Shown one piece after another: positions 12,129 to 62,100 of a stretch of DNA of 64,000 nucleotides. The translations under genes were made by a program, and so were the position numbers. This DNA comes from Tetraselmis striata. Lineage: Eukaryota > Chlorophyta > Chlorodendrophyceae > Chlorodendrales > Chlorodendraceae. The notes beneath the pieces are model-generated. The model was not told the DNA's origin. It saw nothing but the letters and a program-made list of their open reading frames with translations, and ran no database searches. The stretch lies in the NCBI GenBank assembly GCA_006384855.1, contig VCJN01003160.1, forward strand, positions 274,524 to 338,523, given 5' to 3'. Positions within the stretch are counted from its first letter, which is position 1. Every line of letters starts with the position of its first letter.

Positions 12129-15100
12129 ATGGCGGCCACTGCGCAAGACTCCCAGGCGCCCCTGCGCGGGAACCTAGACAAGAAGGACGACGAGCGCGAT
12201 GCGGAAGACAGTGCGTGACCCCCCCTCCTCCCCCCCTCCCCCGCCCCCCGCCACACCCCCCGCCCACCTGGTACCGGATTCCAGATCCAGCTACCCTGTT
12301 AAAGCGGGGCTGTGGGTGGCTTGGGGGGCTTTTTGGCGTCCGGTCGCGGAGTGGCCGGCCCCTGAGAGGGTAATGGCCGCGCCCTGGGCCGGTCACGGCA
12401 GCTCGCGCCGGCCCGCCCGCCCGCCAGTCAGCGGAGATCAGCGACAGCACTGGCGGGCCGAGGCACGCAAGGCCCGTTCTCAAACACTGCAGGGTCCACA
12501 AATCGGACGTTTGCTCCCACAAGCTTAGTGAACTTTCCAGGTCGCGTCTCAGTATGCGCTCTGCCGGCACAGCGTGGGGTGTGCGATTCCGAGCTCTCAA
12601 AATCAAAATATCAAAATATGAACACAAAATATCAGGAAAACACAATCGCCACGCGTGGCGCCACGCACGCATCTGGGGCTGGGATCCAGCAAAGCTTGAT
12701 GCCTTGCTCCATGGCGGGACAAACCTGGCGCGCATAAATTCCAGACTGGGTGAAGGAAGCTGCTTGGTGCGGATCTCCCCTATGCTGGGGACGTGATGAC
12801 GGTGCTGAGTGACCCGCTTTTTTTCAATTCCCTTCCGCTCCCCTTTCCCCTTTCCTTTTGGAACAACTGCAGCGGAGTACTCCCCCTTCTATGGAATCGA
12901 GAAGGGCGCAGTGCTGCAGGAGTCACGCATCTTCAATGACCGCGACATTGACCCGCGCCGTTGCCAGCAGGTGACCCCCCCGCCCCCCCCAACACACACA
13001 CACACACACACACACACACACACACACACACACACACACACACACACGCGCGCGCGCGCGCGCACACACACACACACACACACACACACACACACCAGCA
13101 GCAAGCCTATTCTCGACTTGCTTCTGCGTGCCATCATTTAGCCATCCCTGAGTAGCCTCCCCATCCCTCTTTCTCTTGCCCCGATGCTAGGTCATCACCA
13201 AGCTGCTCTACCTCCTCACCCAGGGCGAGTCCTTCACCAAGGTGCGCGCCCACCTCTGCCGCCAATGCTTACAAATCCGCACTCAGTACCGGGTGACAAA
13301 TGGAGCGGGGCCGTCGCCCCATGGCTGGCTTGCCTAATGTCGGGAGGGGCCTCTCTTACCACCCCAATCCCGTTCCTTTCCTACCCTGCGCAGAAAGAAT
13401 CGTCGGAGGTGTTCTTTGCAGTGACCAAGCTGTTTCAGAACAAGGACGTCAACCTGCGGCGCATGGTGTACCTCATCATCAAGGACATTTGCCCTGGCTC
13501 AGACGAGGTCATCATTGTGACGTCTTCGCTCATGAAGGACATGAACAGCAAAACAGACCTTTACCGCTCCAACGCCATCCGTGTGCTGTGCAAGATCATC
13601 GACAGCCAGCTTCTGGCGCAGATTGAGCGCTACCTCAAGCAGGCGGTGGTGGATAAGTCCGCGGTGGTGGCATCAGCAGTTCTCGTCTCTGGACTGCACC
13701 TGCTGGAGGAGAACCCGGAGATTGTGAAGCGGTGGACCAACGAGGTGCAGGAGGCGGTGCAGAGCAAGCACAGCATGGTGCAGTTCCACGCAGTTGCGCT
13801 GCTGCACGCGCTGCGCCAGAACGACCGCCTAGCGGTCAGCAAGCTCGTGACTACCCTCACGCGAGGCAGCGTCCGCTCCCCGCTGGCCCAGTGCCTGCTG
13901 GTGCGCTATGTCAGCGAGGTCATTGCCGAGTCGCAGGTGGACTCCCCCCCCCCCCCTCCCCACGGGCCTTGCATTTTGTCATCAAATGCCAATGAAAGAG
14001 AATGGAGGTGATTAGCTGATATGCGGCTTAACTGCTGCCGCAGGGCGGCTCCGGCAGCGAGGATCGCCCCTTCTATGACTTCTTGGACAGCTGCCTGCGC
14101 CACAAGAGCGAGATGGTCATTTTTGAGGCCGCGCGTGCCATCGCCAACATGAACAATGTGAGCAACCGCGAGCTCACGCCCGCGATCACTGTGTTGCAGC
14201 TCTTCCTGAGCTCCTCCAAGCCGGTGCTGCGCTTTGCAGCGGTGCGTACCCTCAACAAGGTGGCCATGACGCACCCCATGGCTGTCACAAACTGCAACAT
14301 CGACATGGAGTCGCTGATCAGCGACCAGAACCGCAGCATTGCGACTTTGGCCATCACCACGCTGCTCAAGACCGGCAATGAGGGTTCCGTGGAACGCCTG
14401 CTCAAGCAGATCAGCAACTTCATGTCTGAGATTGCAGACGAGTTCAAGATCGTCGTGGTGGAGGCTATCCGCTCACTGTGCCTGAAGTTCCCGCAGAAGT
14501 ATCGCGCGCTGATGAACTTCCTGTCCAGCATCCTGCGCGAGGAGGGCGGCTTTGAGTACAAGAAGGCCATTGTGGACTCCATCCTCATCCTCATCCGCGA
14601 AATCCCCGATGCAAAGGAGTCGGGCCTGTCCCATCTGTGCGAGTTCATCGAGGACTGCGAGTTCACATACCTGAGCACCCAGATCCTGCACCTGCTTGGC
14701 CACGAGGGCCCCGCGACCGTGGAGCCCTCCAAGTACATCCGCTACATCTACAACCGCATCATCCTGGAGAACGCCACGGTGCGCGCAGCGGCGGTTGCCT
14801 CCCTGGCCCAGTTTGGTGCCCAGGTGGAGGCGCTGCGCCCGCGTGTGATGACGCTCATCCGGCGGGCGCTGCATGACAACGACGACGAGGTGCGCGACCG
14901 CGCGACGCTTTATCTTGCCCAGCTCGAGGGCCGCGCGGGCGGGCCTGCCAAGGTCAAGAACCACATGCGACTGCCCGTGAAGAACATTGAGGCCACGCTC
15001 AAGAGCTATGCGGCCAATCCCACGGGCGAGCCGTTTGACCTGGTGAGGCACCCGCACATTTCCCTGCCCATTGTGCATGAGCAGTGTCTTGCTTCCCACC

Positions 15101-59161: not shown

Positions 59162-62100
59162 CTAGCGCATGGCCGCGCTAACCGCAGTCGCTGCCTCCTG
59201 CGCCACAAAGCGCAGCGAGCGGTCGCCCTGCTCCCCGACGGTGTGGACCGCAGCCAGCAGGGCGTCGTACTCGGGGCCCGCCAGCCGCGGCGTGGCGCCC
59301 GTCGCGATGGCCTTCATCAGCGCCTCCAGCATGACCTGCTGCGTGCGGTGGCGCGGCAGCATGTTGTCGCGCGGGCCAACCAGCACCGCCGTCGTCAGCC
59401 CGGCGCCCTCAGTCGACAGCAGCGCGCGCGCCGCGTCGCCGGGGTGCGTCGCGAGCAGCGCCGCCTCGCACTGCGCGGCCGCCACCGCCAGCGGCGGGTC
59501 GGGGTGCGTCGCCAGCTCGAGGAAGATGTCGTAGCAGCCCACCAGAGGGCCCGACACGCCTGCGCCTGCCTCTCCCGCCTTGACTGCCGCGCCGTCCACC
59601 TCCAGCAGCGACTGCAGCAGCCAGGATGGTGGGATCGGGGCACCGCTCACCTCAGCCAGCAATGAGGTACCCGTCCACACACCCACCCACACACACCCTC
59701 CACGGCGCAAACGAAATCGGGAACCCGGTGCCGATGCTTCCCGATTCCGGCTTGCTCAACTTCCCGTCAATGTAGTCATTATATCCACTGCCATGTATTT
59801 GCCTTTGCGGGAGTTTGCGGGCCAAGCTCCACGAGTTGGCGGTTCGTGGTGTATTCCGACCGCTTTTGACTATTTATGGTTGTTCCCTTGTGTAGGCAAG
59901 GGCAACGGTTCGAAATTGCTACGTGTGCGGGGACCAAAAGTAAGCCAACTGTACACTAATTCATGCTCCGGCAGCAGGCCGAGGTAGGAACACGCTAGAG
60001 CCCACGGCGTGGCCTCGTCATGTCATGGACATATGGAATGGGTACATGAGGCGCCCATGCCACAATGCGATGTAGAAAGCATCCGCCTCGCAAATGCATG
60101 CGCCGTTGAGCGCAGCCTACTTGTACAAACACAAACGGTCCGCGGATTAAAAGCGCTGTTGACCCCCCCCCCCCCCCCCCACCCCCACCAAGAGACACAA
60201 ACTAGTAAAACGGGAAATAATTCAGGAAACACCACGAATACGTCACGAATATTACGACGCGCCATTCATCGCTGGTCGATGGAATATTAAGGTGCGAAAG
60301 AGTATTTTTTGGCCCCGTGGACCGTCTTTAATTGTACGGTAGAATTACGTATTTAATTACGTCTTTAATTGGACGGTCTTTCATTTAATTATACCGTCCG
60401 GTTGGGATAACTCTTACATGTAGAGATAGAGAGAGAGAGAGAGAGAGAGAGAGAGAGAGAGAGAGTGTGTCATAGGGAAAGGAAGGAGAACCCGGGGTGG
60501 GGGGGGGGGGGGGGGGGGGGCTTTCACCTGGCAGAGCTCCAGGACGGGCTCCAGGAAGGGCTCCACGCGGTTCTCATGCGCGTACTCCACCACCGCAGCG
60601 ACCTGCCAAACAACACAGGCCGTCGGCATGGACCGCCCTGCATGCGTACAACCTCCCCGCCGTGCGGGTGGTGAGTCCGCTGTATGGCGCAGGGGAGGAT
60701 GGCTGCTGTGATGGGGCACTGACCTTCGGCACCACCCCAAGCTGGCCATCGCCGACGGCCGCACGTTGCCGGCGGCGATGACGAGGCGGCACAGCCGGAT
60801 ATTGTGCACATTGTTGTTGGTGTGGTCCAGCGACAGAAACTCGAAGAACTTGGGGATGAGCCCCAGGCGGTCGATGGCGTCCACCCACGCAGAGCGCGCC
60901 TGGAGAATGCCACGTGACGCGCGGACGGGGTTTCAGCCGGCTGCTGGCACGCGCGCAGGCAGCGGCTGCTGAGGTATCGCGGCTGAGCGAGAAGCAAGCC
61001 ACCAAATGCTGTGGGACCAGGTGCGCCCGCAGGTGGTGCGTACCTCGAGTAGCGCTCCTAGCAGCTTGAGGGCATAAAGCGGCATGGGGTCCTCGTCCTC
61101 CAGCAGTCCTGGCAGCAATGGCAGCACGTGCTTCTGCACCAGGTTGTCGATCTGTCGGCCTGTGCGCACCGTGTGAATGCAAACGGGTGGGGTGGGGGCA
61201 GCCCCGGGGGGTTTTTTTTGGAGGGGGGGGGGGGGGGGGGGGGGGGGGGGGTGGTCAGCGATTCCGCACATTACGCGCAGAATTACAGGGCGGGGAGGGT
61301 GGGGGCGGGGCGCTTGCCTGAGGTGGAGGTGTCGCTGGTGCCGTCGCGGTCGCCAGCGTAGATGTCCGGCTCCGTCAGGTAGAGGAGCAGGATGTCACAG
61401 GTCACTAGGCGTATGCCAGAAGATTTGGCGGCGTTAGTGCTGCTGCAACAAGCAATTTCATCTCTTTATGTGCTTATTACTTAATTAATTGTATGTTGTT
61501 GGCGGTGGCGCCGGGGGGTGGGGTGGGGGGGGGAGGGGGCGGGCGCTCTGCGGCGGCGGGCGCATGAGCACCTTCAGGCACAAGAAGCGCGTGTCGCCCG
61601 GTCTCGTGATTGGAGGCCACGGCGGTCGCGAGCGCGGGGAGCAGCTTGCCCAGCACGGTGTCGTAGTGCTGCCAGCAACGTCTCCATGTTCTGCGCACAA
61701 CCCAATCGGTGCAACATCAGTGCAGAGCAACGCCAAAACCCTTTTTCTTACTCTCTCTCCATCTCTCTCGCCATCTTTTCGATTGAGACAGCGGAGGACA
61801 AGAGCGTCTGCACCGCAGGTGGCAGGTGGGCCGAAAGCTAAGCGGGGTCGGATGGGAGGGGAGGGGGCAGACAGATGGGGTGGCGAGCGGCGCATGCCTG
61901 GCTCAGCGCCTCCAGGGTGTGCAGCAGCGTGGTTTTGAACTCGGCCATGCCTGTGAAGTTGACCGAGGGCTGGCAGGTGACGGAGAGGTACGTGGCGAGC
62001 TCGGTCACGAGCGCCGGAGTGACAGCGGCGGAGCGGAACGCCGGCGAGGTGAGCAGGTGCAGCACGACGGGGAACTGGCTCAGGTGCGACCCGCCGGTGC

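Follow-up and report, generated by a model that had tools for sequence, protein, structure and literature searches.

Poly(C) runs past 5' splice sites in Tetraselmis striata lie in a donor-proximal C-rich zone

Why do so many introns in one stretch of the genome of the green alga Tetraselmis striata carry, almost directly after the 5' splice site (donor), a long run of C that always lies on the coding strand? The stretch, called the window here, comprises the 64,000 nucleotides at positions 274524-338523 of contig VCJN01003160.1 (C2552), and the genome searched together with it amounted to 224 Mb in 2903 contigs. An original prediction, made from the letters of the window, had listed 12 such donors and had suggested a role in splicing, an unusual nucleic acid structure, or strand-biased slippage tied to transcription. 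The analyses described below revealed that the pattern of poly(C) after donors is real and is specific to both strand and position. The best account of it, which we favor with somewhat better than even confidence, is slippage within a donor-proximal C-rich zone that splicing would maintain, with the length of the runs left free.

To obtain introns for counting, we used three sources, namely the window, another part of the same contig (C2552:1-200000, hereafter the rest of the contig), and eight chaperonin loci picked without regard to runs. All introns are predictions of a purpose-written hidden-Markov gene finder, which was self-trained on those three sources from a seed of 3188 codons taken out of 26 of the 44 chaperonin match segments (third-position GC, 0.921). 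Runs of C or G of at least 7 nucleotides (C≥7 or G≥7) and long dinucleotide repeats were scored alike in every state, so that the gene finder was blind to the runs, and its donor and acceptor profiles come from its own calls. The learnt profiles consisted of exonic (C/A)AG followed by intronic GTG(C/A)GC at donors and of intronic GCAG followed by exonic G at acceptors. In total, 173 introns were predicted (160 with GT and 13 with GC donors) and used for run enrichment, while the 158 GT introns of 60 to 3000 nt served for family comparison and tract counts, and a set of 143 introns, in which one copy of a duplicated block was dropped, served for skew and donor strength.

In 30 of the 173 introns, a C≥7 run began no more than 25 nt past the donor, compared with 8.6 expected under random placement in the same introns, and none of 5000 permutations reached 30. 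This permutation shuffles runs within their own introns and does not address why introns have runs at all, 64 of the 173 holding a C≥7 run and 23 a G≥7 run at any position. Near the donor, G≥7 was found in none of the 173 introns (1.7 expected), and within 25 nt of the acceptor C≥7 occurred in 5 and G≥7 in none. A single duplicated intron whose donor is poor accounts for two of the 30; with one copy of the block removed, 29 of 158 introns had a near-donor run (8.1 expected; 0 of 5000 permutations). By source, near-donor runs were present in 12/41 introns of the window, 12/46 of the chaperonin loci, and 6/86 of the rest of the contig, where the signal was weaker (2.7 expected) and some gene models lie inside repeated elements. 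The GT introns of the chaperonin genes and of the coatomer gamma gene of the window (COPG) together gave 17/53 with C≥7 and 0/53 with G≥7. For the window, roughly 11 or 12 affected introns among about 36 had been estimated, and 12 of 41 were counted here (11 with GT donors and one with a low-confidence GC donor); none of these 41 introns had a G≥7 run in the same 25 nt.

Genome-wide counts, which had been proposed as the check on enrichment and strand bias, pointed in the same direction. On the forward strand, the donor word CAGGTG was followed by C10 at a distance of 0 to 10 nt in 1033 places, at 11 to 21 nt in 562, and at 41 to 51 nt in 299; the reverse strand gave 511 and 295 for the latter two distances. 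G10 followed the same word in 309 places at 0 to 10 nt and 334 at 41 to 51 nt (343 on the reverse strand), and the composition-matched non-donor hexamer GAGCTG, with a frequency in the sample about equal to that of CAGGTG (266 versus 257), was followed by C10 at 0 to 10 nt in 244 places on the forward strand. Taken together, the hexamer and distance counts indicate that both the surplus of C and its strand preference are properties of the donor word that fade out over some tens of bases. Presumably, a good many CAGGTG words do not serve as donors, so the effect at genuine donors should be larger than these ratios show. Patterns with a variable gap are lopsided by strand, one strand counting each run end, and the strand counting each hexamer once was used. 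Reversed-pattern controls on that strand gave 40 (C, 0 to 10), 135 (G, 0 to 10), and 30 (GAGCTG), and those with fixed edges gave 213 and 236 (C, 11 to 21), 203 and 180 (C, 41 to 51), and 168 and 162 (G, 41 to 51). These controls shift with distance because the sequence past C runs is C-rich, and GAGCTG was therefore relied on instead. A count of GTGANNC12 (2729 versus 195 reversed) was dropped as evidence, being inflated by an interspersed repeat: among eight sampled loci, four are one repeat ending in GTGATT plus poly(C) and one is a predicted donor. The repeat at those four loci (L002, L004, L007, and L008) contains ACATCACTAGCTTAGCTATAGTGATT (one variant), then the poly(C) run. The word ACATCACTAGCTT was absent from the window and from C2552:1-200000.

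The bias toward C is not confined to introns with runs. In 113 GT introns with no C or G run in the first 45 nt, the skew (C-G)/(C+G) was 0.206 at +7 to +30 (95% confidence interval [CI], 0.143 to 0.269), then 0.093 and 0.087 over +31 to +100, and 0.022 at +101 to +200 (CI, -0.031 to 0.079); among COPG and chaperonin introns lacking a near run (n = 36), it reached 0.344 at +7 to +30. Tract counts gave the same picture, with 66 C4-C6 and 14 G4-G6 tracts and 36 C≥7 and no G≥7 runs at +3 to +30 (4424 bp), and with 192, 181, 25, and 24, respectively, beyond +100 (40144 bp). The runs are thus the tail of a continuum, and the stretch after run-free donors is likewise rich in C and poor in G. The suggestion that the runs stem from transcription-tied, strand-biased slippage in general was not supported, as C≥7 and G≥7 were equally common beyond +100 and the genome-wide bias was gone by 41 to 51 nt. 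Near-absence of polarity was also seen in the 300 bp past 18 predicted stop codons (C≥7, 2; G≥7, 1), which together with the lack of deep-intron polarity argues against gene-wide transcription-coupled slippage.

Slippage as such was supported by comparison with a second copy, in which run lengths differ. A second COPG copy is present on contig C2897 (99% identity over a 999-base exon), and the stretches fetched from this contig are 97 to 98% identical to the window and colinear over the compared parts; judging from this colinearity and identity, it is probably the other haplotype. The stretches fetched from the second copy covered eight of the 11 confirmed donor sites (12211, 12971, 13937, 15599, 16624, 31827, 36443, and 41251), and a C≥7 run was present in both copies at 8/8. 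The longest runs (window/other) were 7/7, 8/12, 13/27, 22/21, 23/26, 10/10, 10/15, and 18/28, while other runs in the compared pairs also differ, including by loss or gain (25/6, 3/14, and 13/6). Between the copies, 94 of 7636 exonic sites (1.2%) and 249 of 8176 non-exonic sites (3.05%) differ. An inverted duplicated block with a many-intron predicted gene was also observed at ∼2.9 to 8.7 kb and ∼31.3 to 37.1 kb of C2552 (opposite strands, 93% identical); one predicted donor has 21 C in one copy and 39 in the other, and comparison of the two allows the birth of runs and their changes in length to be traced.

Within the window, the plus strand holds 35 C≥7 and 20 G≥7 runs, and all the runs of the original prediction are present at the positions claimed. 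Their lengths had been given 0 to 3 bases too short, the actual values for the nine cases described as clear being 7, 13, 22, 23, 19, 10, 18, 19, and 22. Eleven of the 12 claimed donors were called by the run-masked gene finder, and only 34619 was not. Five called donors belong to COPG (plus strand). Intron 1 (12211-12872) has C7 at 12219-12225, which the second copy retains, and another C7 at 12230-12236, which the second copy lacks. Intron 2 (12971-13190) opens with GTGA, then C7, G, and C8 at 12975-12990 and an (AC)n repeat, the second copy reading C12, T, C8. The intron at 13937-14043 has GTGGACT and C13 at 13944-13956 (C27 in the second copy), that at 15599-16183 has GTGCGA and C22 at 15605-15626 (interrupted in the second copy, longest run C21), and that at 16624-16791 has GTAA and C23 at 16628-16650 (C26). 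Poly(C) directly followed by (AC)n on the same strand, as in intron 2, was observed as a compound microsatellite at five sites in the sample: window positions 12983 and 34039 (plus) and ∼56717-56735 (minus), position 134862 of C2552 (plus), and one minus-strand site of that contig.

Outside COPG, five more called donors lie on the plus strand. The intron at 31342-31496 has C9 at 31356-31364 (offset 14), and that at 31827-32409 has C10, TT, C10 at 31847-31868 (offset 20), for which the second copy reads C8, TT, C10. The intron at 36443-36626, which belongs to a gene with a NOV_C domain in its downstream frame, has GTA and C10 at 36446-36455 (C15 in the second copy), and the intron at 41251-41392 has C18 at 41262-41279 (offset 11; C28) in a gene that we take to resemble ribosomal protein bL17. 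The intron at 57385-58113 has GTGA and C19 at 57389-57407, its gene presumably being of the ankyrin-repeat type. On the minus strand, the called intron 59612-60527, with its donor at 60527, has a sense C22 (G22 on the plus strand, 60499-60520), and a low-confidence and thus doubtful GC-donor intron at 62472-62586 has a sense C11 at offset 19 (G11 on the plus strand, 62557-62567). The unconfirmed candidate donor at 34619 (34619-34655, plus strand) has GTGA, C19 at 34623-34641, and C9 at 34647-34655; it lies inside a predicted GC-donor intron (33982-35491), and its longest run is 19 in the window and 20 in the second copy.

The COPG model and the chaperonin models with near-donor runs were compared with known proteins. 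The 895-residue product of the COPG model matches coatomer gamma-1 (5a1u) over residues 16-882 with 936 bits, and all five COPG poly(C) introns are located inside the aligned stretch. The junctions at 12971, 15599, and 16624 are gapless, with a 2-residue gap a few residues past that of 15599, while the junction of 12211 lies beside and that of 13937 at a 3-residue gap, the frame being maintained at the latter. Among the eight chaperonin models, the six with near-donor runs can be aligned along the greater part of their length (672 to 817 bits), matching T-complex delta, gamma, zeta, alpha, and epsilon and Chaperonin 60B1; the spliced-protein comparison covered these six and left out L029 and L031. 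The PDB chains that match one of the chaperonins best are, we assume, Chlamydomonas chains. Of 12 near-donor chaperonin junctions, nine are gapless and one has a 1-residue gap beside it. The remaining two are both in L032: donor 1347, where a 4-residue gap could be filled by an acceptor 12 nt upstream, the predicted one apparently being off by that distance, and donor 263, which is too N-terminal to judge. Very short introns were predicted in L033 (3611-3653) and L036 (1951-1984) at alignment gaps of 14 and 11 residues, respectively, but neither these nor the L032 acceptor affect any counted donor position. RbcS, at L041 1438-1956 (minus), is a single genome match with an uninterrupted frame. 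This gene, the chaperonin matched by the PDB chains, and the codon and splice profiles together form the sequence-based grounds for assigning the genome to a green alga. Doubtful models include one at 43306-49463 (minus), which contributes 4 of the 41 window introns and overlaps a repeated element. That element is a 4.87-kb stretch occurring at ∼44.9 to 49.7 kb of the window (minus) and ∼45.3 to 50.2 kb of C2552 (plus), with 95% identity and direct repeats of ∼180 bp near its ends that give it the look of a mobile element.

Slippage can account for the growth of the runs but not for their place or strand, so a donor-linked zone rich in C and poor in G is needed as well. In the account that we favor, the first ∼30 nt past the 5' splice site would form such a zone in the pre-mRNA, and slippage would turn its short C tracts into poly(C) runs, which would then lengthen, shorten, and break up like mononucleotide microsatellites; the sense strand of the runs would simply follow from that of the zone. 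Selection at the RNA level during splicing may keep the zone, perhaps since a C tract with few G would form little pairing with neighboring sequence and so keep the donor accessible; a donor-associated RNA-binding protein that tolerates or prefers C may also contribute. Run length itself would not be under tight selection. A zone kept by splicing, with neutral runs on top, is the most economical reading. In a folding model, donor openness was 0.430 with the run (n = 27) and 0.363 to 0.368 after random sequence or sequence from no-run introns was put in its place (Wilcoxon P = 0.026 and 0.014), and C20 inserted into 100 no-run introns raised it from 0.370 to 0.416 (P = 0.012), whereas a T patch lowered it to 0.335. 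Two other sources of a donor-linked bias were rejected. An unusual U1 was discarded, as both copies found carry the canonical AUACUUACCUG at the 5' end, and so was extended pairing between U6 and the 5' splice site, since the C excess is roughly flat across +7 to +29 with no peak at the U6 G positions, in a pairing register that was assumed; U6 matches the Rfam consensus in the part that meets the donor. At L046 (C1681), a U6 snRNA copy lacking 10 nt of the conserved central part was observed beside intact copies and is perhaps a pseudogene.

Several observations weigh against this account. The first 30 nt of introns, a subset of the non-exonic sites, differ between the copies at 21 of 467 sites (4.5%; the copy alignment within runs is uncertain), which gives no sign of base-by-base conservation of the zone. 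The C bias also extends beyond donors, with 55 C4-C6 and 17 G4-G6 tracts and 6 C≥7 and no G≥7 runs in the last 40 nt of introns (6320 bp), and with 7 C≥7 and no G≥7 runs in the 300 bp ahead of 23 predicted start codons, where introns in 5' leaders that the models lack, or a broader bias of the 5' region, may be responsible. Moreover, a G patch opened the donor as well as C did in the folding model, which ignores quadruplexes (0.435, and 0.424 for G20 in no-run introns), so that openness alone fails to explain C over G. Finally, runs of at least 10 are ∼15-fold denser at donors than in the deep intron, compared with ∼3-fold for C4-C6. This is more than the seeds would give under linear growth, and thus either runs grow more steeply in a C-rich context or long ones are favored or tolerated at donors.

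In a rival explanation, the poly(C) run itself would be a splicing element, with a C-binding KH/RRM protein, either PCBP/hnRNP K-like or a TIA/Nam8-like U1 helper reading C for U, stabilizing U1 at the donor. In its favor, long runs are enriched at donors beyond the enrichment of short tracts, the position past the donor matches that of human TIA1 sites (PMC2964331), and the runs persist in the second copy at every covered confirmed donor. However, copies that are 98% identical would share most features anyway, lengths vary freely between them, and 143 of the 173 introns do without a near-donor run. The idea that runs compensate for weak donors was dropped, as donors with runs were not clearly weaker at -3 to +4 (P = 0.37) and had G at +5 in 15/28 cases versus 71/115 for the others. 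We consider a splicing role of the run itself possible but doubtful. It might be extended to a green-algal splicing code, equally tentative, in which a dedicated RNA-binding protein associated with donors would read a C tract past the donor as a positive signal for recognition; such a tract would replace the U-rich elements of animals and yeast and might grow into uninterrupted poly(C). A DNA-level process at exon-intron borders is rather unlikely as well. Here template poly(G), polymerase pausing, local strand opening, or nucleosome edges would bias slippage or repair, which suits the strong strand polarity, the change in run length between copies, and the C bias ahead of start codons, but not the loss of polarity beyond +100, its near-absence past stop codons, the confinement of the bias to within tens of bases of the donor, or the rarity of long runs at acceptors. 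As for R-loops, one of the structures proposed for the runs, transcripts rich in C have the orientation that forms them less readily.

The remaining two explanations carry little weight. Recent introner-like insertions could have brought the run with them, as its place at a fixed intron end would suggest, but an all-against-all comparison of the 158 introns gave only 23 match rows in 19 intron pairs. Thirteen of these pairs are in the inverted duplicated block, three are in repeated blocks with similarity extending past the intron, and three are short internal or simple-repeat matches. No further family with a common donor end was present in these introns, which represent a small fraction of the genome, and the sequences between donor and run vary among introns; an introner origin is thus very improbable. 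An assembly or sequencing artefact seems hardly credible: homopolymers are error-prone and the contig itself ends in a G12 run (window 63989-64000), but two copies on different contigs have runs at the same donors, which makes an assembly artefact unlikely, and we know of no technical cause for the donor and strand specificity. Exact run lengths may nevertheless be wrong. The terminal G12 suggests that long G/C runs break the assembly.

Donor-proximal pyrimidine tracts have counterparts in other eukaryotes. Nam8 is the yeast counterpart of the TIA1-type reader. In animals, U-rich elements just past the 5' splice site are read by TIA1/TIAL1 (PMC2964331). Like the TIA1/Nam8-type elements, the algal runs lie within tens of bases past the donor as pyrimidine tracts of variable length with no fixed motif; unlike them, they consist of C, reach 39 C in the sample, and come without U enrichment, T at +6 to +26 of 92 run-free introns being 0.197 to 0.205, no higher than in the deeper intron, and C 0.408 to 0.353. 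The introns of Euglena gracilis have a C-rich polypyrimidine tract ahead of the 3' splice site (PMC11170887) and thus also use C in place of T/U in a splicing-related tract of an alga. In contrast, long runs here lie past donors and are rare ahead of acceptors, although short C tracts also outnumber G tracts at the acceptor end. Sense-strand C tracts near splice sites likewise recall PCBP/hnRNP K-type elements, which in mammals are reported as tracts ahead of the exon bound by PCBPs (PMC5829739); the algal tracts follow donors instead. The lengths and interruptions of the runs vary between copies as in mononucleotide microsatellites, from which their fixed donor placement and strand set them apart, and, unlike introner elements, the 158 introns share no common family sequence. 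In expression-raising introns of Chlamydomonas, no significant common motif was obtained by MEME (PMC7419008), and none of the papers listed by the literature searches described donor-proximal poly(C) in algae.

Other repeats were observed in the sampled parts of the contig. A 3.3-kb repeat (87% identical) occurs at ∼190.7 kb (plus) and ∼131.5 kb (minus) of C2552 with direct repeats of ∼190 bp at its ends, and its minus copy holds an intron whose reverse-complement coordinate within the first 200 kb is 68199. Repeated words resembling TTCACTATA, with C runs between them, occur at 21961-22840 of the window and at 140.7 to 144.2 kb of C2552, apparently as one repeat family.

The finding, which holds genome-wide, joins a variant of the pyrimidine bias near donors to the usual behavior of microsatellites. 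A hypermutable repeat is linked to a single fixed position of the splicing signal: about one intron in three of the COPG and chaperonin genes has a C run no more than 25 nt past the donor, and CAGGTG donors alone contribute ∼790 more C10 places per strand than the control hexamer predicts. The poly(C)-rich zone provides a C-based counterpart to the U-rich donor elements of other eukaryotes, and it is both a practical cue and a hazard for gene prediction in such genomes. Moreover, the natural length variants between copies offer a route to test, in an allele-specific manner, the effect of the sequence past the donor on splicing.

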